Assembly: GCF_005405385.1 (NCBI RefSeq)
Contig: NZ_BJDY01000002.1
Location: 496,001 to 560,000 of the forward strand
DNA from: Lactiplantibacillus mudanjiangensis
Lineage (GTDB): Bacteria > Bacillota > Bacilli > Lactobacillales > Lactobacillaceae
Reading direction: 5' to 3'
DNA length: 64,000 nt
Numbering within the stretch: the stretch's first letter is position 1; every line of letters starts with the position of its first letter. Of this stretch, positions 3,557-44,006 are shown one piece after another. Below the pieces are notes generated by a model. The model had not been told where the DNA came from, did no database searches, and saw only the letters and a list, made by a program, of their open reading frames with translations. A program made the translations under genes and the position numbers.

Positions 3557-3601
3557 AAAAAAACAAAGTCTAAGTCGCTGAAATCAACGACTTAGACTTT
3601 G
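3557..3601 (-). terminator. Terminator of the tannase-like gene
   Basis: A perfect 14-bp stem, CAAAGTCTAAGTCG (3564-3577) with its complement at 3588-3601. An A-run at 3557-3563 gives a U-run on the minus-strand transcript. Confidence 0.85.
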
Positions 3602-3614
3602 CTTTAAAATACAG

Positions 3615-5495
3615 TTATTTTAGACTCCGATTGACCCATTTGATAAAGTTCGTTTCATTATTCCCCGTGCGTTCTGCTTCGGTATGACCTTGACCCCAAA
3701 CCGTCGCAAAATCAACACTTTTCACTTGCTTGTTTTGTTGCAAGGCTAATTTCAAATTGGTTTCAACGGTCAAAGCCGTATCACTTTGATTGATCCCAGT
3801 CCGAATCCGCCAGTATTTCGCAACCTTGCTGGTATTATAACCATCATAGTAGCTCGTCAAGTAGTACATTGGATTATAAAGATTCAACCGTTGCTGCATG
3901 GTACTCCCCAGGGCATCGGTCTTCTTCAAATCTTTTTGATACGCCTTCGCATAGCTTGCCTTATAATTCTTCAACTTCGCATACTTCGCACTATTTTGTT
4001 TTAATAGTTTGCTAATCGTCGAATCAAAATGGTTGGCAGAACTACCGCTAGTCGCAAATAATTGATTTTCAGTTTGTTGACGGGTTAAGCCATCAAAAGC
4101 ACCGACATCTTTAGACGCGGTCTTGCAATGCTTTACAAACGCCTTCATGCTGGTAATCGTCGCGGTATTTTTCTTGACATTATAAGTGATCCAAGTGCCA
4201 TTCTTATTCAACGACTTGATATAAGCCTTAGCTGTCTTATAAGTTTTACCACTGCTGGTTGATTGACTGCCCATGGCCGTACCGCTACTGCCAGAAGGCA
4301 TCTTCCCAGACTTAGCCGTCCCAGATGGTTTAGTGCCACTTGGCAGACTACCAGACTTCTTAGTCCCGGTTTGCGCTGCCGCCCCACTAGGTCCTTCCGT
4401 ACTGGTAGCCTTGTATGGGAACGTCGTATCTTTCAAGAAGTTATTGAGTGACTGTTCCACTTTTTTTTTCAAGTAAGTAGCATAAGTCCCCGTCGTGTAA
4501 ATCCCCGTTGAAGATTTAGTTAAGCTCAACGTTTGCCCGTTGCTATCTTTCAAGCCAAGCTTGTTGATATAGCTTGCATATTGAGTAGCCATATCATTCG
4601 ACAACGCTTTGGTCCAAGTGCCGGACTTCCGCGTACCTGTTGTCGCATATTGACCCATGTTCCATTCATAGGCTTCATTAGCGGTATCCAAACTGGTAAT
4701 CGGGCACCAAGCCATCGCCCCAGCAATCGCGTCACTGGTTGATTTACCAGCAGTCGTGGCTAATGGCGCCCCGATTTTCTTAAGATACTTTGTGTACTTC
4801 TTACTATCACCAGTCGCACCCATCAACGCACTTTGCGCGCCGCCACCACTGTGACCAAACGTAAAGACGCGATTCGTGTTACCGGCAATTCGGGAACTAT
4901 TCAACCGTAACGTCCGCACGGCTGATTTCAAATCCGTAACGCCCCATGGTGAGGAGCCATTGGATTTGTCGGTTTGACTCAAGCCACGACACCCAGCAGC
5001 GACATAGATAAATCCAGCTTTAGTATACTTAGCCGAGCTACTGTCATAACCAGTTGGTGCTGCTTGGGCTGCATATCCCGGTGTATTCACCGGGATCACA
5101 ATTGGGGCCGTTTTAGCGGTATACCCCTTCAATTTCGCCTTATTATTAAATGTTAGACGATAAGTCTTGTTACCACTAGCTTTAGCGGTGACATATTTAG
5201 CGGGAATAAAGATTCCCATCGATTCATAAGTCTTGCTCGTCGTCTTGGTCCCATACTTAATACCTACTTGGTAATAAACCTTGTGTTTGGCATTATAGCG
5301 CCATTTATGCTGATTAATTAACAGCTTTTTGGCATTGGTGACATCGGTTTTGGTGACCGTTTGTTTGGTCGCTTTCGCCACTTTGGCGGCGGTGCTGGTC
5401 TGCTTGCTGGTCGTTTTAGTTTGACTGCAAGCGGACATTAAGGCGGTGGTAGCTAGTAAACAACCCGCCAATGGTAGCACTTGTTTCAACTTCAT
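3615..5495 (-). CDS. Secreted lipoprotein, subtype-B-tannase-like alpha/beta hydrolase
   Basis: 626 aa. The ATG at 5495 is chosen because AGAGGGG lies 8 nt upstream and the protein then starts with a lipoprotein signal (MKLKQVLPLAG…LMSAC, lipidated Cys23). The hydrolase domain has the nucleophile motif G-H-S216-G-G-G, a segment DAIAGAMAWCPITSLD…AYEW typical of tannases, and a C-terminal WRIRTGINQSDT (probable acid Asp572) followed by GQGH604. Family members hydrolyse galloyl or other phenolic esters, so this is probably a surface-anchored esterase. It is longer than intracellular tannases (about 470 aa) because of a Lys/Thr-rich linker after the signal and a Ser/Gly/Lys/Pro-rich insert at about 365-418. 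The substrate is inferred only. Confidence 0.75.
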   Translation of the reverse strand: MKLKQVLPLAGCLLATTALMSACSQTKTTSKQTSTAAKVAKATKQTVTKTDVTNAKKLLINQHKWRYNAKHKVYYQVGIKYGTKTTSKTYESMGIFIPAKYVTAKASGNKTYRLTFNNKAKLKGYTAKTAPIVIPVNTPGYAAQAAPTGYDSSSAKYTKAGFIYVAAGCRGLSQTDKSNGSSPWGVTDLKSAVRTLRLNSSRIAGNTNRVFTFGHSGGGAQSALMGATGDSKKYTKYLKKIGAPLATTAGKSTSDAIAGAMAWCPITSLDTANEAYEWNMGQYATTGTRKSGTWTKALSNDMATQYASYINKLGLKDSNGQTLSLTKSSTGIYTTGTYATYLKKKVEQSLNNFLKDTTFPYKATSTEGPSGAAAQTGTKKSGSLPSGTKPSGTAKSGKMPSGSSGTAMGSQSTSSGKTYKTAKAYIKSLNKNGTWITYNVKKNTATITSMKAFVKHCKTASKDVGAFDGLTRQQTENQLFATSGSSANHFDSTISKLLKQNSAKYAKLKNYKASYAKAYQKDLKKTDALGSTMQQRLNLYNPMYYLTSYYDGYNTSKVAKYWRIRTGINQSDTALTVETNLKLALQQNKQVKSVDFATVWGQGHTEAERTGNNETNFIKWVNRSLK

Positions 5496-36622: not shown

Positions 36623-37384
36623 TTATTCGGCATCGCGTACTGGTGAAAAAGAATGTCGATGGATCGGTGTCACGCCAAGTTCTTTGAGCCCAGCCAAATG
36701 TTTAGCGGTGCCGTAGCCCATATTGTCCGCAAAGTCATAACCCGGATAAACTTGATCATACATTTCCATCAAGTGATCCCGAACAACTTTTGCGACAATA
36801 CTTGCCGCAGAGATGCTGGCGCTTTTGGCATCACCTTTAATCAAACGGGTCTGCTCAATGGGCACTGGAATCTGCATCGCATCAACTAATAACAAAGTTG
36901 GATTAACGGATAGCCCCTCAACAGCTTGTTTCATCGCTACTCGCGTTGCTTCATAGATGTTCAACTGATCAATCGTTTGTGCATCGGCGACACCAATGCT
37001 AACTGCGACCGCCTCTTCTAAAATTTTCGGCATTAAAGCTAAGCGTTTTTTCGCCGTCACTTGCTTCGAATCGTTCACTTCTAACAAATCAAAGGAATTA
37101 TCTAAGACGACTGCGGCCGTCACGACCGGGCCTGCTAATGGGCCACGACCAACTTCATCGACACCGGCTACATATTGACCGCCACGACTCCAAAAAGCGC
37201 GTTCTAGGTGCATGTGCTGGTTAAACCGAGCCACTAGTGCGGCTTGTTTTTCCGCGCGTTTTAGATATTGTTTGTAAGCTTGTTGAACCCCTTTTCGTGG
37301 ATCGGCTTGGGCCGCCGCCAAATCGTCAGTCGTCGGTTTCGCTGCTAGTAATGCTTTAAAATCAGCAATTGTTCGTTCAGGCAT
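36623..37384 (-). CDS. rnhB: Ribonuclease HII
   Basis: 253 aa. The RNase HII catalytic block [17 protein letters not shown] (about 71-87) carries the D-E pair, and D in LLVDAM and [14 protein letters not shown] complete the set. The N-terminal 65 residues form the helical extension usual in Firmicutes. It removes RNA from RNA-DNA hybrids. It overlaps the rbgA gene by 8 bp. Confidence 0.96.
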
Positions 37385-38231
37385 CCGTAACCGCTCCCGT
37401 CCAATCGAGCGTAAAGCGACCTAAGCGTCCTTTACGAATATCGAGTAAAAATGCGACACAGAAACGTTCCCAGTCCTCGCGCATGCCCATATTTTTAGTC
37501 ATTACTAGTAACAATTCTGGACCCGCCAACGTCAATTGATCTTCAGTTAAATGATAACGATCCATCAACCGTTGCCCATAATGTTGTTTGAAAAAGTCCA
37601 AGGCAAATAAAGCCACATCATCGTTAGGATAGATATTTTCTTTGATCGCACCGGTGACGGCCAATTTAGTCCCAACCACTTGATCTTCAAACTTCGGCCA
37701 CAAGATCCCTGGTGTATCTAATAATTCCAATTTATTGGATGCTTTAAGCCACTGCTGACCTTTGGTGACCCCAGGACGATCGCCGACCTTGGCAATCTTT
37801 TTATTCACAATATGGTTTAACAACGTTGACTTACCAACATTTGGAATGCCGACACAAACGGCCCGGATTGGTCGATTGGTGATCCCACGAGCTTCAATTT
37901 TAGCCAATTTATCCGCCAGCATCGTTGTGGCGGCTTGGGTAATTTGTTTGCCAGTCATGCGGTTACGCGAATCAATCGCAATCGCTGTTTGACCTTGAGC
38001 TTCGTAGTGTGCCACCCAGTTAGCGGTCAACTGTGGATCAGCGAGATCCTTTTTCGTCATGATTAGTAAATGTGGTTTTTGTTGAATTACTTTTTCAATA
38101 TCCGGGTTCCGGGACGCTTCTGGAATCCGCGCGTCGACAAGTTCGAACACGATGTCGACTAAATGTAATTTATCTTCAATTTGATGAATGGCCTTGGCCA
38201 TATGCCCAGGATACCATTGAATGTTTGCCAT
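37377..38231 (-). CDS. rbgA: Ribosome biogenesis GTPase RbgA (YlqF)
   Basis: 284 aa circularly permuted GTPase: G4 TKKD comes first (about 57-60), then G1 [12 protein letters not shown], then G3 DTPGILWP. The N-terminal [14 protein letters not shown] is diagnostic of YlqF/RbgA. It is needed for late 50S subunit assembly. It is first in the rbgA-rnhB-dprA operon. Confidence 0.96.
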
Positions 38232-38342
38232 AATTAATTGCTCCTTTAACGTTCAGAACAAGTCTGACCGATTTCTTCGCTATCCTTCATCATACCGATA
38301 AAAGTTGTAAAACGCCAGTCATACCGGTTGAAATCGGCAGTT

Positions 38343-38456
38343 TCACCACGTCATTTCGCGTTCATTCACCAAATCAATCACTTGCTCAAAGCTAATTGGC
38401 CGGTAGTTAATCAAATCTGCACCGACATTGACCACATTAACACCTAACGTCCCATT
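38343..38456 (-). pseudogene. Gene fragment of unrecognised family
   Basis: A protein-like minus frame between two stops reads GTLGVNVVNVGADLINYR then PISFEQVIDLVNEREMTW. It has no start codon or SD and looks like the C-terminal end of a lost gene. The family was not recognised. It lies in the 420-bp gap between rbgA and the TrlF-type gene, at the edge of the island. Confidence 0.4.
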
Positions 38457-38462
38457 CTAAAA

Positions 38463-38512
38463 TTGGATAATCATAACTATAAATAAAACACTTTATGATT
38501 ATCATTATCCAA
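38463..38512. repeat. Imperfect AT-rich inverted repeat
   Basis: TTGGATAAT (38463-38471) pairs with ATTATCCAA (38504-38512), extended inward by TCATAA/TTATGA. No T-run follows directly, so it may be a small repeat element rather than a terminator. Confidence 0.5.
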
Positions 38513-38554
38513 CCTATTTTTCTCGACCATCATTAAAGATCTATAACAAATCAT

Positions 38555-38596
38555 ATAAAAAACGGCTTTCAGGATAGTTAAATTCTGAAAGTCGTT
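38555..38596 (-). terminator. Terminator of the TrlF-type gene
   Basis: AACGGCTTTCAG (38561-38572) pairs with CTGAAAGTCGTT (38585-38596), with AAAAAA at 38555-38560 giving U on the minus transcript. Confidence 0.8.
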
Positions 38597-38652
38597 AGTT
38601 TACCATATTAACTTATCAAATTAATTATCAGCAACAAACGTTTTCAAATTAC

Positions 38653-41571
38653 TTAGCTAAACAAAGAATATTTTCTGTCACGCAACTCAAAGGCAGGTTT
38701 TGTACCTTCAAGCACATCAATAACTTTCTGATTGATTTCTTTATTCTCAAGAGCACCTGATACAAAATTAAAGGTATTACTCGACTTATCCATATTTGCA
38801 ACAATAACTTGCTCAGCATCAGCAGCAATCGCAATATTCGGATTATGAGTGACAACGATAATTTGGCGTTTGTTTTTTGCATACCGTAAATATGGTACAA
38901 GGTGCTTAAATATTGATTGATTATCTAAGTTATCTTCCGGTTGATCAATAACAAGTGGTGAATTTTTTTGTGAAAGTCCTAAATAAAATATTAAAAGAAC
39001 CAATCCCTTTTCACCTGCAGATAATTCTTGCAATGAACGGTTGTTATACGTAAGTCTTAATCTAACATCTAAGAATTCAAGGCCATATAAATAATCATAA
39101 ATTCTTTGCTTATCAAAGAACACACCATCTAGTGCTTCAAAATTGGGCTTTTCATCAATTATAGACTGACCAGATGTTTGATAAACCACATCCTCTATAA
39201 ATAAAATAACTGATGCAGGATCATCTAGAATAGTACTATCCATCTTTCCTGTCAAAAATGTATGCGCTCCGACGCTCCCTCTCAGTTTTCCAGCTTTTCT
39301 GCTATCCACTTGTGCTACTATCTGTTGATAATAATCCGTAGTTGCCTCAATACCACTAATAAATTCAACACCCGCTTCATTAGCATCGTCCTGTTGTTGG
39401 TCTACATTATTTAATGTAGCAATATCATTTTTAGCATCCTGATACAATTCATCCAACTTTGTTCCCTTTATTTTAAGCAAAGCTATAATTTTTTCAGTTA
39501 TTACATTCCGATCTTTGTACTTTTGACTTAAAGCTTTGGGAAAATCGTTATTAAATTCACTTATTGCAGCAGTCAATGTTTGCTTTGATACTTCACTATC
39601 CTCCCCATTACCATCTTCAAGTGTTTTCAGTTTTTTCTCCCATTCAGCTAAATCTTCGATATATTTAGCTTGCTCTTTATCTTGTTTAGTCATTTTACTT
39701 TTTAGAGAAGTCATTCTTTTTTTCTTTTTCTCAATTGTATCTTTTACAGATTCTATCTCAGCTTTTAACTCCACAAATTTTTCATCAGTATTTTTTGTTT
39801 GAGCCAAAATAACTGGATCCTTACTATTTAAATGATCCTCTGGTATGATAAATATCTTGCCTAAGGATTCTACATCTAGAGCATCAGGTAACGAAGATCT
39901 ATAGGTTTCCGTAAATTCATCTACGCTTGTATTAAAACTATGAATAATCTTTTCAGTTTTTTTCCGTTCTTCTTTCAGCTCATTTAGTTCCAATAGAAAC
40001 TTTTCAAGATAAGCTTGATCACTTTCTAACTGCGTAATTTTCTTTCTTTCTTCACCTACTAGTTTATTTAAATCTTTCCATTCATTTTGTTCCTTAGTAT
40101 TATCAGCTACCACATTCACCTCTTTAGGAGGATTATTTCTAAGACTCTTAATCTGAGATTCTATATCGGTTAATTTTGCCATCTTTTGTTCTATATAATC
40201 CGGTTTAAATTTGTTTTCAAGTTCTAAAATTTCCTTATTTAAATTAGTCAATGATGTTCTCAAATCGCTTATCTGACTATCAGAAGTACTGTCTAACTTG
40301 TCTACAAGAGATTGCCAAGATTTCTGTTGCATTCGCTTATTCACAGGCAAAGCTCCGAATATTATTTTGTCAATTTCGTTATTCAGCTCTGAATCGTCAA
40401 CAGCAGAAGCAATTTTTTCAATAAAGCTTTGTGGAAGATAATCGACACGAGCATTATTAGGATTAGAAGAAGCATCAAGTTTAATCCAATTGCCTTCATC
40501 GCCATCAGCCCAAATCAGCCTTGAACTAAATTTGGACCCATATTTTGCAGAATTATTAAAACGTTTTTTGGATAAAAATGATGCATCATCCATATTTCTC
40601 GAACTACCATCAAGACCAATGACATCTGAAAGAGCACTTTTTCCAGCACCCTTATTACCTATAATTGTAACAAGACCTGGGTTCAATTTGATTTTTAATG
40701 ATTTTCCATACCATTCTGCTTGTTCTGCATCACTTTGTATTTCAATTTGAGAAATAGTTTGATGTTTTCGTAAACTCTGGCTGCTAAGCGATGGTGGCTG
40801 TACTCCAAACGAAATGCGGCCTCGCGGTTGTGAGAATGCTTCCTTAAGGCCATCAAATGTTAACTCTGCCTTTATCCATGTTACGGATTGTGCATCATCG
40901 TACATCATCGGGCTATGAACATCACTATTAACTGTTACAGGCAACCCCTTAAGATCACCAACACAAGTATGTTCAATTAAATTCTCAGCTGAGCTTTCAG
41001 TATTTGTATCTAAAAAATCAACAGACTTTCGAAAATCATGGCGAAGCACTCTCTTTAATTCTTTATTAGGATCGTTTTTAGAACCATTGAGGCCATGCGC
41101 TTGACCAAGTCCGTTACTTTTCCGACCATCATGTACTGATATTAAACCATGATGTTGATCGCAAACGAATTTCTGAATATCATTTAAACTTGCATAATTA
41201 CTATCAGCGTCTGGTGTAATGTCATGTAACCTTGCAAAAGTTCGAAAATCTTCCGCTAAGTTAGTTAAATCAGTTTTTTCTGAAAAAATTCCAATTACAT
41301 GCACATTTGGACTAGCAGTATCTGTCTTAAATTCAACACCTGGAAATACTGTAATTTCATATCCTTTTGAATAAATAATTTCACGAATATTATTAATACA
41401 AACTGGATCTATACATTCATGATCCGTAATAGCTACTACGCTAATATCATTATCATGCCATGCTTCAACAAACTTTTCATTCGAATCTTCTGCTTTATAC
41501 TGTGAATCATAAGACATGCTAGTATGCACATGTAAATCCCATTTATGCCAAGTTGAGCCAATTTCAAACAT
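38653..41571 (-). CDS. TrlF-type protein: PHP domain fused to SMC/ABC-like ATPase
   Basis: 972 aa. The N-terminal PHP phosphoesterase has H14-x-H16 (DLHVHTSMS), D50-H51 (AITDHE), E80 and D217-x-H219 (SDVHSP). The ATPase has Walker A GNKGAGKS (305-312), a long coiled coil of about 300 residues (about 400-690), signature LQELSAGEKG, Walker B VIDQPEDNLD and switch His in VVTHNPNIA. This is the architecture of the TrlF family, whose relatives occur in defence islands and are thought to cut nucleic acids when triggered. It is more AT-rich than its neighbours and is flanked by gene fragments, which suggests horizontal transfer. It is a single-gene unit with its own terminator. Confidence 0.85.
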   Translation of the reverse strand: MFEIGSTWHKWDLHVHTSMSYDSQYKAEDSNEKFVEAWHDNDISVVAITDHECIDPVCINNIREIIYSKGYEITVFPGVEFKTDTASPNVHVIGIFSEKTDLTNLAEDFRTFARLHDITPDADSNYASLNDIQKFVCDQHHGLISVHDGRKSNGLGQAHGLNGSKNDPNKELKRVLRHDFRKSVDFLDTNTESSAENLIEHTCVGDLKGLPVTVNSDVHSPMMYDDAQSVTWIKAELTFDGLKEAFSQPRGRISFGVQPPSLSSQSLRKHQTISQIEIQSDAEQAEWYGKSLKIKLNPGLVTIIGNKGAGKSALSDVIGLDGSSRNMDDASFLSKKRFNNSAKYGSKFSSRLIWADGDEGNWIKLDASSNPNNARVDYLPQSFIEKIASAVDDSELNNEIDKIIFGALPVNKRMQQKSWQSLVDKLDSTSDSQISDLRTSLTNLNKEILELENKFKPDYIEQKMAKLTDIESQIKSLRNNPPKEVNVVADNTKEQNEWKDLNKLVGEERKKITQLESDQAYLEKFLLELNELKEERKKTEKIIHSFNTSVDEFTETYRSSLPDALDVESLGKIFIIPEDHLNSKDPVILAQTKNTDEKFVELKAEIESVKDTIEKKKKRMTSLKSKMTKQDKEQAKYIEDLAEWEKKLKTLEDGNGEDSEVSKQTLTAAISEFNNDFPKALSQKYKDRNVITEKIIALLKIKGTKLDELYQDAKNDIATLNNVDQQQDDANEAGVEFISGIEATTDYYQQIVAQVDSRKAGKLRGSVGAHTFLTGKMDSTILDDPASVILFIEDVVYQTSGQSIIDEKPNFEALDGVFFDKQRIYDYLYGLEFLDVRLRLTYNNRSLQELSAGEKGLVLLIFYLGLSQKNSPLVIDQPEDNLDNQSIFKHLVPYLRYAKNKRQIIVVTHNPNIAIAADAEQVIVANMDKSSNTFNFVSGALENKEINQKVIDVLEGTKPAFELRDRKYSLFS

Positions 41572-41757
41572 TTGACTTGCACTCCCTTTGTTATCATTTT
41601 TACTACATTCTTACCTTATACTTTAATAATACATCAACGTAAAAAAAGCGCTACCAAAAAAGATAACTTTACTTCAATTTTTCCATTATTCTATTACTGT
41701 AAAAAAATGTAATAGAACGCTGTTCTTTGAACTTAATCCACCAACAATAGATAGTGA
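41572..41757. other. Upstream region of the TrlF-type gene
   Basis: Contains the weak SD AAGGGAG and a possible minus-strand promoter (TTTACG, 17 bp, TATAAG, about 41613-41642). A 9-bp inverted repeat TTCTATTAC/GTAATAGAA (41689-41697/41709-41717) could be an operator or part of a hairpin. Confidence 0.4.
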
Positions 41758-41771
41758 CTAAAGGTTGAAAG
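41758..41771. repeat. Solitary terminal repeat of the MITE-like element
   Basis: CTAAAGGTTGAAAG is identical to the ends of the elements at 414-706 and 62628-63169. The sequence beyond it is unlike either element, and no opposite end is present nearby. Confidence 0.55.
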
Positions 41772-41842
41772 TACCAAAATAGACCGCAATCCTTGGTATC
41801 ACTAAGTTGTGATGCTTTAAACTAAAATTTTCTATTTTATTG

Positions 41843-41882
41843 AGCATTACCAAGTAGCCTTGGCAGGCTACTTGGTAATGCT
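41843..41882. terminator. Strong hairpin, probable terminator
   Basis: A perfect 17-bp stem, AGCATTACCAAGTAGCC (41843-41859) with its complement (41866-41882), with a short T-run on the plus side. It lies 40 bp beyond the stop codon of the 48-aa gene at 41923. Confidence 0.65.
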
Positions 41883-41922
41883 TTTATAAATTCATCAAAA
41901 ATAGTATCGAGAACTCTTGTAG

Positions 41923-42069
41923 CTATTCGAAAAGTAATTCTGTCCGAATACCACGAGATTCAAGAATATTAGCACGCCGTAGTGCCGCGGAAAGATGGAC
42001 CAATTTAGAAAAACGATGAAAAGATTGGTGAATATTAGTGTGATTGTATTGTATAGTAGACATGGACAT
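41923..42069 (-). CDS. 48-aa basic small protein of unknown function
   Basis: Starts at the ATG at 42069, five bases after a strong SD (AGAGGAG, 42075-42081). The protein begins MSMSTIQYNHTNIHQSFHRF and ends LRRANILESRGIRTELLFE. It is rich in His and Arg and has no membrane helix or known domain. It has its own promoter (42156-42183) and a downstream hairpin, so it is very likely expressed. Longer upstream frames lack an SD. No family was recognised. Confidence 0.65.
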   Translation of the reverse strand: MSMSTIQYNHTNIHQSFHRFSKLVHLSAALRRANILESRGIRTELLFE

Positions 42070-42155
42070 GAATTCTCCTCTGCATGTTTGGTTTAGACGC
42101 TTTAAGTATACAGATATGGAGTGATTCATGTCTATTTTTGTACAGTAAAGCATAT

Positions 42156-42183
42156 ATTATATCATTGGGCTGTTTCTGCGCAA
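42156..42183 (-). promoter_or_regulatory. Promoter of the 48-aa gene
   Basis: On the minus strand TTGCGC (42178-42183), a 16-bp spacer and a perfect TATAAT (42156-42161). Confidence 0.6.
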
Positions 42184-42211
42184 TCAATTCGTCGAATTTT
42201 ACTTTAATCGC

Positions 42212-42349
42212 TTAGGCATCATGCGTCAAAAACATCACTGAAAACACACCAACCTTTTCTTCACGATTGGCGGCCACTTCATCTCTCAAAATTACTTTGA
42301 GTTTCCCGTTATCACCCAAAACCATAGCAATATGATCTTGATCCACCAT
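42212..42349 (-). CDS. 45-aa ORF, possibly a gene fragment
   Basis: Reads MVDQDHIAMVLGDNGKLKVI then LRDEVAANREEKVGVFSVMF. The composition is protein-like but the SD (AAGAG) is poor. It may be the end of a lost gene in the island or a small real gene. The family was not recognised. Confidence 0.35.
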   Translation of the reverse strand: MVDQDHIAMVLGDNGKLKVILRDEVAANREEKVGVFSVMFLTHDA

Positions 42350-42456
42350 CAAATCAACTCTTTTTTATCCTATGATTGACAATATATTAAAAATAATTAG
42401 AACACCAAGAAATTTTCAAGGATAATATTATTTAAATTAACAACACCAAACAAAAA

Positions 42457-42484
42457 AGCATCCAGTCGCTAAACTGAATGCTTC
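42457..42484 (-). terminator. Terminator of the S41 protease gene
   Basis: AAGCATCCAGT pairs with ACTGAATGCTT across a short loop, with AAAAAA to the left. Confidence 0.75.
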
Positions 42485-42500
42485 TTCAAACCCAAGCTAT

Positions 42501-44006
42501 CTATTTCTCAGCAAGTTTCAACGCCGTATTATACGCATTGTCATTATCACTGATCTTTTGTGCCAATTGAACTTCAATCTTCGCTAAGGTCTTCTTATCC
42601 ATCTGACCATTAGCCGTTAACTTCGCATGTTTTTGATAGGCTTTAATTGCACTAGTCGTTGAACTGCCAAAGTAACCGTTAGCGGACCCTTTGAAGTACC
42701 CTAAGGCTTTCAAGTATTGTTGCAAGGTCTTGACGTTGTCATTAACCTTACCCGCTTTAAGATCGCTCGTCTTGCTTAAAGCGGTCAAACTAGCATAGCT
42801 AGGTTCACTCGCTTTAATCGTTGGCGTTAAGCCCTTCTTGTTGATCCACGTGCCATTTGGTGTTAACCATTTAGCCACGGTGATCTTCATTTCGGTCTTA
42901 TCACTAAAGGTTGAAACGGTTTGAACCGTCCCTTTCCCATATGATTGCGACCCGATTAACTTAACCCCCGCTGATTGATGCAAGGCAGCGGAGAAGATTT
43001 CAGCAGCGGAAGCACTCCCACCATCAATTAAGACGGTCGTTGGCGTCGTCACTTTATAGCCACCATCATACTTCTTACCCGCAACATATTTTTCAGCTTG
43101 TGAACCACGCGTTTGCACTTGCATGATCGTTTTACCGTCTTTCAAGAACATTGACGCCATCTTCAACGCAGCGGTCATCAAACCACCAGGATTACCACGC
43201 ATATCGATGATCAACTTCTTAGCACCTTTTTTATCAAGAGCCTTCAAAGCTGTCTTGAATTCTTTGGCAGTGTTGGTTGAGAAAGTGGTTACCGTTACAT
43301 AACCAATCTTCTTCTTACCGCCGACCATCTTGTAATTGACAGTCGTTACCGGAATCTTAGCCCGTTTCAAGGTTACGGTAAAGGTCTTACCGGCCCGTTC
43401 AACTTCAAGTTTCACAGTCGTACCAACTTTACCACGCATCAAGTTGACTGCTTGCGTCAACGTCTTACCAGCAATCGACTTGCCGTTAACTTTCTTGATC
43501 ACATCTTTAGGTTTTAAGCCCGCCTTTTTAGCAGGCGTACCGGCGATTGGTGAAATAATTTGAATGTAGTTCCCAGATTTTTGCACTTGAGCACCGATAC
43601 CGGAGAATGAACTATCAATCGTATCATTCAAACTTTCCGTTTCACTCTTGTCCATGTATTCGGAGAACTTATCACCTAACGAGTTGACCATCCCATTAAT
43701 CGCACCATTCGCCAACTTATTGGCATTAACTGGCTTGTAATAGTTATCGCTAATGGTACTGTAGACCGACTGAATCTTCTTCATCGCCGCACTGGTTTGT
43801 TGCATACTACTGATCTGCTGCGTCACCGCACGACCAAGCACGAAGTAAGTCCCGCCAATCCCCACACCTAACGCAATAATAATGGAAATCAAGTACGTCC
43901 ATAACCCAACCCGACGCTTTTGGCGCGGCTTTTTCCCTTTCAAATGGGGATTGCCCGTCTCAACGGGTTCGCTTGGTGCTTGGGTATCCTTTGGTTCTTC
44001 TGGCAT
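42501..44006 (-). CDS. S41 family C-terminal processing protease (CtpA-like)
   Basis: 501 aa. A proline/charge-rich cytoplasmic start, one membrane anchor (about 33-55, LWTYLISIIIALGVGIGGTYFV), a PDZ domain (GIGAQVQKSGNYIQIISPIAGTPAKKAGLKPKDVI), the S41 catalytic domain with Ser in DGGSASAAEIFSAAL and Lys in GSQSYGKGTVQ, and a C-terminal peptidoglycan-binding domain (VKTLQQYLKALGYF…FGSSTTSAIKAYQ). It cuts extracytoplasmic proteins near the cell wall. It is first in the run of ypm-type genes read on this strand. Confidence 0.93.
   Translation of the reverse strand: MPEEPKDTQAPSEPVETGNPHLKGKKPRQKRRVGLWTYLISIIIALGVGIGGTYFVLGRAVTQQISSMQQTSAAMKKIQSVYSTISDNYYKPVNANKLANGAINGMVNSLGDKFSEYMDKSETESLNDTIDSSFSGIGAQVQKSGNYIQIISPIAGTPAKKAGLKPKDVIKKVNGKSIAGKTLTQAVNLMRGKVGTTVKLEVERAGKTFTVTLKRAKIPVTTVNYKMVGGKKKIGYVTVTTFSTNTAKEFKTALKALDKKGAKKLIIDMRGNPGGLMTAALKMASMFLKDGKTIMQVQTRGSQAEKYVAGKKYDGGYKVTTPTTVLIDGGSASAAEIFSAALHQSAGVKLIGSQSYGKGTVQTVSTFSDKTEMKITVAKWLTPNGTWINKKGLTPTIKASEPSYASLTALSKTSDLKAGKVNDNVKTLQQYLKALGYFKGSANGYFGSSTTSAIKAYQKHAKLTANGQMDKKTLAKIEVQLAQKISDNDNAYNTALKLAEK

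Follow-up and report, generated by a model that had tools for sequence, protein, structure and literature searches.

A TrlF-type gene of probable defence function at the rbgA-S41 hotspot of Lactiplantibacillus mudanjiangensis

Ppl is an anti-phage protein which combines a PHP domain with an NTPase; a review describes it as a single-stranded DNA 3'-5' exonuclease that is restrained by nucleoside triphosphates (NTPs) and triggered by nucleotide depletion and 3' ends (PMC12904381). RloC, in which a tRNase is joined to a Rad50-like ATPase, is activated by DNA breaks. PrrC is held by the type I restriction-modification (R-M) enzyme to which it is linked; RloC itself is rarely linked to R-M genes (PMC2610378, PMC3874168). 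In a study of the Photorhabdus temperature restriction locus (TRL), most mutations giving temperature tolerance hit trlG whereas trlF carried none, and the authors consider that trlF may be without a role (PMC7554251). A gene for a TrlF-type protein, trlF, lies in the stretch of Lactiplantibacillus mudanjiangensis DNA analysed here (64,000 nucleotides, referred to as the window).

The trlF gene of the window is probably defensive; this is supported by association, as described below. The reading favoured here, with moderate confidence, is that a defence-type module of one gene, trlF, was acquired horizontally at the rbgA-S41 hotspot, and that in its protein a sensor ATPase would license a PHP enzyme.

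The trlF gene, its protein and its distribution

The stretch from rbgA to the S41-type protease gene (38232-42500) contains a single intact long gene. Open reading frames (ORFs) were called mechanically, and the names of both border genes were read from the sequence. The gene and its surroundings are as follows.

37377-38231, minus strand: rbgA, left border of the hotspot, found in 21/21 genus genomes
38560-38605, minus strand: probable intrinsic terminator of trlF, predicted from fold and sequence as a stem-loop followed by a T run
38653-41571, minus strand: trlF, 972 amino acids (aa), PHP plus SMC/Rad50-type ATPase, matching NCBIfam TrlF
42501-44006, minus strand: S41-type protease gene, right border of the hotspot

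A plausible ribosome-binding site for trlF can be read from the sequence. The stem-loop at 38560-38605 is absent from the results of a consensus terminator scan, whose loop limit is 8. Rfam gave three matches, all under the gathering score and taken as chance. At 0.337, trlF has a lower GC content than any other window ORF listed with 200 aa or more; the next is 0.401 and the window mean is 0.424. Between 38500 and 42499, the GC content of all eight 500-base windows is 0.31-0.39, compared with about 0.43-0.49 in most flanking windows.

The protein belongs to the NCBIfam family TrlF (NF045780): the match spans residues 5-968 and scores 542.5 bits, where the cut-off is 350. It has the architecture of this family, a PHP domain followed by a split SMC/AAA head with a coiled coil. 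Pfam PHP covers residues 12-144 (26.9 bits, cut-off 26.4); around residues 842-921, AAA_21 scores 28.8 bits (cut-off 27) and SMC_N 36.3 bits, which is under its cut-off of 40. Four parts can be delimited.

Residues ~1-265: PHP nuclease-type domain, N-terminal
Residues ~270-415: N-lobe of the SMC/Rad50-type head, with Walker A GNKGAGKS at 305-312
Residues ~419-725: long coiled coil
Residues ~735-955: C-lobe of the head, with LSAGE at 850-854, VIDQPED at 874-880 and H909

The ATPase motifs are conserved: G305, G310 and K311 (Walker A), S851 and G853 (signature), D876 (Walker B) and H909 are invariant in 40/40 aligned proteins. The metal site of the PHP domain, which we take to consist of H14, H16, D50, H51, E80, H91, H147, D217 and H219, varies among these proteins. 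The complete nine-position set (HHDHEHHDH) is present in half of the aligned proteins (20/40), the window TrlF among them. Nineteen of the remaining 20 retain H14, H16, D50 (or N), E80, D217 and H219 and are changed at position 51, 91 or 147. One TrlF encoded within a type I R-M operon (L145:9254-12295) has a PHP domain without the HxH metal motif, hinting that PHP may be non-catalytic in this protein. Nuclease activity may be dispensable in some TrlFs, since half of the relatives are without the full PHP set and L145 is without HxH.

An AlphaFold2 model of TrlF (predicted local distance difference test 83.5, predicted template modelling score 0.69) has the order PHP, head lobe, coiled coil, head lobe; at this template modelling score, the mutual placing of the domains is not well determined. 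Foldseek searches of the PDB match the ATPase part to Rad50, SMC, JetABC and MukB heads. The best match of the PHP part is RNase AM (7ug9; E 3.6e-6, template modelling score 0.64 by target length, root-mean-square deviation 3.8). A sequence search of the PDB gave just weak matches to similar groups, with PHP matches solely to 7ug9 and 9etk. As modelled, TrlF is a Rad50-like chain preceded by a PHP enzyme.

An earlier note on this DNA, made from the sequence alone, had described an AT-rich insert between the rbgA and S41 genes that encodes a 972-aa PHP-SMC ATPase of TrlF type. These statements are borne out by the base composition, the ORF and the profile matches, and the residues which it had singled out (H14, H16 and K311) are numbered correctly.

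TrlF is patchily distributed. Relatives' genomes are represented by one per species; at E<=1e-30, trlF is found in 1/21 genus genomes. The family profile gives partial matches in G011 and G007 of the same genus, with 110-116 bits and therefore under the cut-off of 350. Above this cut-off, TrlF is present in 16/397 Lactobacillaceae genomes, the window's own counted. Two of these copies are interrupted by stops (L078:8288-10903 in G113 and L085:8397-11126 in G105). In 58 of the loci fetched from genomes and viral contigs, a frame aligns from residue 15 or earlier to residue 955 or later of TrlF. The ratio of nonsynonymous to synonymous substitution rates is ~0.29 for L075 against L084 and 0.11 for L079 against L080; judged by these sequence comparisons, trlF is under purifying selection in relatives.

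In a tree of 41 rows, the window TrlF groups with L073, L075 and L110 (support 100/100), so that its nearest neighbours are from other genera. The enclosing clade of 20 also includes other Bacillota, Melainabacteria, Acidobacteria, Bacteroidota and proteobacteria-type lineages. The other seven Lactobacillaceae TrlFs in the tree form a separate, distant clade; because Lactobacillaceae TrlFs fall in distant clades, the family was probably acquired more than once. The window copy was probably acquired horizontally; this is suggested by its presence in 1/21 genus genomes, its lowest GC content and its tree neighbours from other genera.

TrlF relatives are also mobile. Eight plasmid records match over 80% or more of the TrlF query, and TrlFs occur in contigs of a viral collection. 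Among annotated phage records, 7/50,697 match TrlF; all seven matches are partial and none covers 80% of the protein. Some TrlFs lie on plasmids or conjugative-type elements (by reading) and could serve competition between such elements. This distribution bears on an alternative in which TrlF resembles Wadjet/JetABCD or DdmABC: the SMC-type ATPase would read the shape or size of DNA and the nuclease would remove plasmids or conjugative DNA, not phage. In favour of this alternative, Foldseek pairs TrlF with JetABC chains at E 1.5e-8 and weaker values and with LmuACB at 5.2e-6; however, such fold matches are common to SMC/Rad50 heads generally. TrlF is a single chain, no kleisin- or Kite-type partner was recognised beside the window gene, and TrlF relatives are themselves plasmid-borne. 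A Wadjet-like role is therefore considered unlikely.

Restriction-modification neighbours and the swap slot

The strongest evidence that TrlF is a defence module comes from a slot in which it is one of several interchangeable occupants; this evidence rests on relatives, not on the window copy. In two Lactobacillaceae genera and in Roseovarius, trlF is found in a cluster with genes for an MmeI-type enzyme, a helicase and a GIY-YIG-type protein. The Roseovarius locus L178 has these genes in the order MmeI-type enzyme, helicase, GIY-type gene, trlF, and the same set is present in the Lactobacillaceae loci L075 and L084. The cluster spans are L178:3426-9987, L075:1453-8290 and L084:10935-17829. 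The TrlFs of the Roseovarius cluster and of the two Lactobacillaceae clusters sit in different parts of the tree.

The GIY-type gene of this cluster is found in 19/397 Lactobacillaceae genomes. The slot after it holds TrlF in two of them, G370 and G150; these TrlFs are 51-54% identical to the window TrlF. The slot could be read in 11 of the 17 other genomes (neighbours L257-L267), and in 6/11 it contains known or candidate defence genes. It is occupied by GajA and GajB of Gabija in G068 (477 and 251 bits) and by SIR2 and HerA in G012 (171 and 188 bits). In G199, the second gene is PDC-M39B (122 bits); in G394, the second gene is KwaB-like, with 24.2 bits below a cut-off of 26.3. G355 has a weak TIR-like match (5.9e-6) two places on and a caspase (1.9e-17) three places on, while G246 has HEPN_AbiV two places on. 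The slot of G228 holds a DUF6731 protein without a PADLOC match. One protein per slot was scanned in G049 (PADLOC) and in G033 (Pfam), with no match in either. Defence names assigned by PADLOC count as annotation and do not prove a defence role.

R-M genes are also found close to trlF outside this cluster. Neighbours were counted in the 39/80 genome-contig loci with enough flank on both sides by single-sequence phmmer searches with R-M queries, some of which were named by reading (L077 and L078 were not scanned singly). R-M homologues account for 9/106 ORFs within 1.5 kb of trlF, 3/108 at 1.5-4 kb, 3/155 at 4-7 kb and 1/119 at 7-11 kb. PADLOC tallies for the 78 nearest neighbours agree with this trend (type I specificity 4, restriction 3, methylase 3). 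At E<=1e-20, PADLOC gives 117 families in the 78 nearest ORFs against 28 in the 78 outermost; these are families and not genes, and the comparison is supportive only, the phmmer count by distance being the better control. Ten hand-picked trlF neighbours have many defence-type domains; they are a chosen subset and give no rate.

In several loci, trlF is embedded in a type I R-M operon. L138 has a packed hsdM-hsdS-trlF-hsdR arrangement in which hsdR begins 4 bp past the end of trlF; L145 has the same order with one additional ORF before hsdR. In L149 and L135, trlF is preceded by hsdM, with one and two intervening ORFs, respectively, and is directly followed by hsdR. Other trlF loci contain a type III restriction gene (L074), a C5 methylase (L083) or the candidate PDC-S56 (L088). 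In L073, a TIR gene adjoins trlF and a bSEFIR-type gene is located farther away.

This company bears on two further alternatives. A role of TrlF in DNA repair or stress, for example in the response to temperature, is very unlikely. Such a role would fit the resemblance of the ATPase part to Rad50/RecN/SMC heads and the presence of a TrlF-named protein in the Photorhabdus TRL (PMC7554251). In that source, though, the mutation pattern described above implicates trlG and leaves trlF possibly without a role; moreover, patchy distribution together with R-M and defence neighbours is unlike a housekeeping repair gene.

Alternatively, the window trlF might be a functionless orphan which once served an R-M cluster as an accessory and has lost its partner genes. 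In its close relatives L075 and L084, trlF is the last gene of a five-gene cluster, whereas the window gene is solitary, next to a decayed insertion sequence (IS) and two gene fragments. In L073, the nearest relative by tree path, a short ORF (3557-3907) about 4 kb from trlF resembles the first gene of the cluster (by eye); directly beside trlF, though, is the TIR gene and not an R-M gene. The window frame is intact over 972 codons and retains all motifs, the plausible ribosome-binding site and the terminator. Loss of function is therefore judged improbable.

A number of observations weigh against a defence role linked to R-M. R-M queries matched in just 10/39 trlF loci. The window trlF is without an adjoining R-M partner, and its genome has no match to HSDR_N and none to the GIY-type gene at E<=1e-40. 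No known defence gene was seen in 5/11 slots (G228, G049, G033, G249 and G327), of which scans covered the first three, and two of the six positive slots are weak (the KwaB-like protein under its cut-off and the TIR-like match). The PHP set is incomplete in half of the aligned relatives and the HxH motif is lost in L145. Finally, the one paper found which names a TrlF ties its operon to growth temperature and not to phage (PMC7554251).

The rbgA-S41 hotspot and its remnants

The rbgA-S41 interval could be read in 16/21 genus genomes, the window counted, in which both borders lie in the fetched stretch. Measured between alignment ends, it is 165, 166, 275, 531, 670, 1281, 2087, 3709, 4272 (window), 4640, 5399, 5763, 6083, 6641, 8095 or 14,115 bp. 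G005, G014, G017 and G003 were left out because the contig starts ~0.2, 1.2, 4.4 and 6.2 kb, respectively, from rbgA; in G004, S41 is absent from the 15.9 kb read beside rbgA. With conserved borders and cargo differing among relatives, the site is an integration hotspot.

The cargo in relatives is varied. By reading of 49 ORF starts it is largely MFS-, LysR- and MetE-like; Pfam scans of nine of these ORFs found GNAT, HTH, a YoeB/YefM pair, SecB-like and DUF6119. The DUF6119 gene is located at this site in the sibling species G007 (L055:1428-3242), in an interval with a GC content of ~0.3. In G004, an element of ~13 kb with a tyrosine-recombinase-type integrase gene lies directly before rbgA (L053:2836-15882). 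Since this element adjoins rbgA, the hotspot appears able to accept integrating elements. An attachment-site origin was considered and dropped: the two G004 end stretches compared share no direct repeat of 9 bp or longer, so no attachment site is claimed.

The rbgA-S41 site is a true turnover site; it is general-purpose and not dedicated to defence. PADLOC was run on the window ORFs of 140 aa or more that do not overlap, 54 in all; beyond TrlF-type matches, it gave names such as DpdF, ShosA, PsyrT and LeoA among the 25/28 families listed. We take these for core proteins (RecQ, DprA and similar ATPases) that resemble the defence families. A defence island, even a mini version, was accordingly rejected, as no other recognised defence gene is present among the 54 ORFs within the same 25/28 families. 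What remains is one defence-type gene, trlF, at a general-purpose hotspot.

Remnants on both sides of trlF record earlier turnover.

38346-38456, minus strand: metallophosphoesterase relic, C-terminal ~37 codons; the intact gene adjoins rbgA in G017
38463-38512: AT-rich inverted repeat with 21-nt arms (86%)
41757-42151: internally deleted IS; both ends are retained and most of the DDE transposase is gone
41771-41784 (plus strand) and 42130-42143 (minus strand): inverted repeats of the IS, 14 bases, exact and mutually facing
41843-41882: perfect 18-nt palindrome inside what is left of the transposase C-terminus, in the left IS end (position by reading)
41923-42153, minus strand: ORF with the transposase N-terminus (by reading), part of the deleted IS
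42212-42352, minus strand: relic of a small conserved gene, N-terminal half; relatives are ~100 aa

Over 37 aa, the left relic is 78% identical to the C-terminus encoded by a 181-aa Metallophos (Pfam) gene, which is intact in the sibling genome G017, immediately before rbgA. In G004, a 70% match to it is found ~13 kb from rbgA, beyond the integrase-bearing element. The right relic corresponds to the N-terminal ~46 aa of a gene whose open frames in relatives are 89-112 aa. This gene is found in six other genomes at E<=0.001 among 397 searched, none of them within the genus; at E<=1 the relic is matched by neither Pfam nor PADLOC nor NCBIfam, and it has no plasmid match.

The two halves of the IS match ~1.1-1.2 kb apart in G004, G012, G013 and G017, and the copy in G004 encodes a 451-aa DDE transposase. 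The 64-kb window has exactly two copies of the 14-base repeat, where none is expected by chance. In the intact relative L091, a single such repeat was found, with one mismatch, and 18/200 shuffles did as well. Stretches similar to the palindrome match several further places in genus genomes. The AT-rich inverted repeat was considered as the end of a mobile element and this was dropped, as it is single-copy in the genome (no second copy at E<=0.01).

The earlier note had listed a fragment at 38343-38456, a possible second one at 42212-42349 and an AT-rich inverted repeat; all three are real, with small shifts at the fragment ends. Its element end is indeed IS-derived, but it is more than an end, as both IS ends are kept without the middle; what it took for an unrelated small gene contains, by reading, the transposase start and is not an independent gene. 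The claim of a chromosomal hotspot with gene turnover agrees with intervals of 165-14,115 bp, their differing content and the relics on both sides. The proposed defence island has to be given up, because trlF is the sole recognised defence-type gene and much of what relatives carry at the site appears metabolic. The suspected defence role itself is probable, given the R-M and defence company and the swap slot of relatives.

Proposed mechanism and comparison with known systems

From these observations we infer nuclease activity, a trigger, a substrate and an anti-phage outcome for TrlF. The ATPase head would dimerise with ATP and sense a cue of infection, for which DNA ends or DNA that is damaged or restricted are the likeliest candidates. 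Sensing would license the PHP domain to degrade nucleic acid (single-stranded DNA or RNA), and this cutting would halt phage or plasmid replication. TrlF may often form a second line behind R-M, with PHP cutting unleashed when restriction fails. A sensor of DNA state is proposed because of the PHP fold, the Rad50-type head and the repeated R-M linkage, beside the precedents of Ppl, RloC and PrrC.

A broader idea is offered more tentatively, as a possibility that we would not yet favour. TrlF could be an interchangeable effector or guard of a widespread class of R-M-linked defence on which no experimental study was found: a PHP counterpart of PrrC/RloC, with a Rad50-like sensor and a PHP nuclease, which backs type I and MmeI-type restriction, shares a slot with Gabija and SIR2-HerA, and also acts alone, as it would in the window. 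In some R-M-embedded lineages, the PHP domain might have turned into a sensor after losing metal ligands.

No paper joining TrlF, ATPase and phage was found in the open-access library searched, and wider searches gave nothing relevant among the papers listed. The window TrlF is a further member of a known family for which no phage test was found there. TrlF-type proteins are widespread across genomes, viral contigs and plasmids; the slot shared with Gabija and SIR2-HerA and the trlF-containing type I R-M operons turn a vague suspicion into a specific, testable idea.

The closest named family is NCBIfam TrlF itself, whose cut-off the window protein passes. The family name presumably comes from the Photorhabdus TRL operon, whose TrlF is presumed to belong to NF045780. 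The window gene is alone, whereas the Photorhabdus gene shares its operon with trlG and trlR.

Other families share parts of the protein. RNase AM and other PHP phosphoesterases include the best solved match of the PHP domain but are without the ATPase part. TrlF has PHP or ATPase stretches related to the Spaf_1101 family; membership was rejected, as NF045781 gives 150.8 bits against a cut-off of 475. A PHP or ATPase stretch is also related, weakly, to the candidate PDC-M49A (PADLOC 3.6e-10).

Ppl is similar to TrlF in having PHP and ATPase in one chain; PADLOC relates it to TrlF at 1.5e-31, with the best stretch at residues 848-964. Membership in Ppl (NF042955) was rejected at 127.8 bits against a cut-off of 1000. 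The NTP-restrained exonuclease is a feature of Ppl, while the activity of TrlF is only predicted.

TrlF shares with RloC a coiled-coil Rad50-like ATPase and a nuclease-type domain in one protein, and some TrlFs share with PrrC a linkage to type I R-M genes. No anticodon-nuclease family was matched in TrlF at E<=1 in Pfam or PADLOC, the coverage of RloC by PADLOC not having been checked. The difference from both RloC and PrrC lies in the nuclease-type domain, which in TrlF is an N-terminal PHP domain and not an anticodon nuclease.

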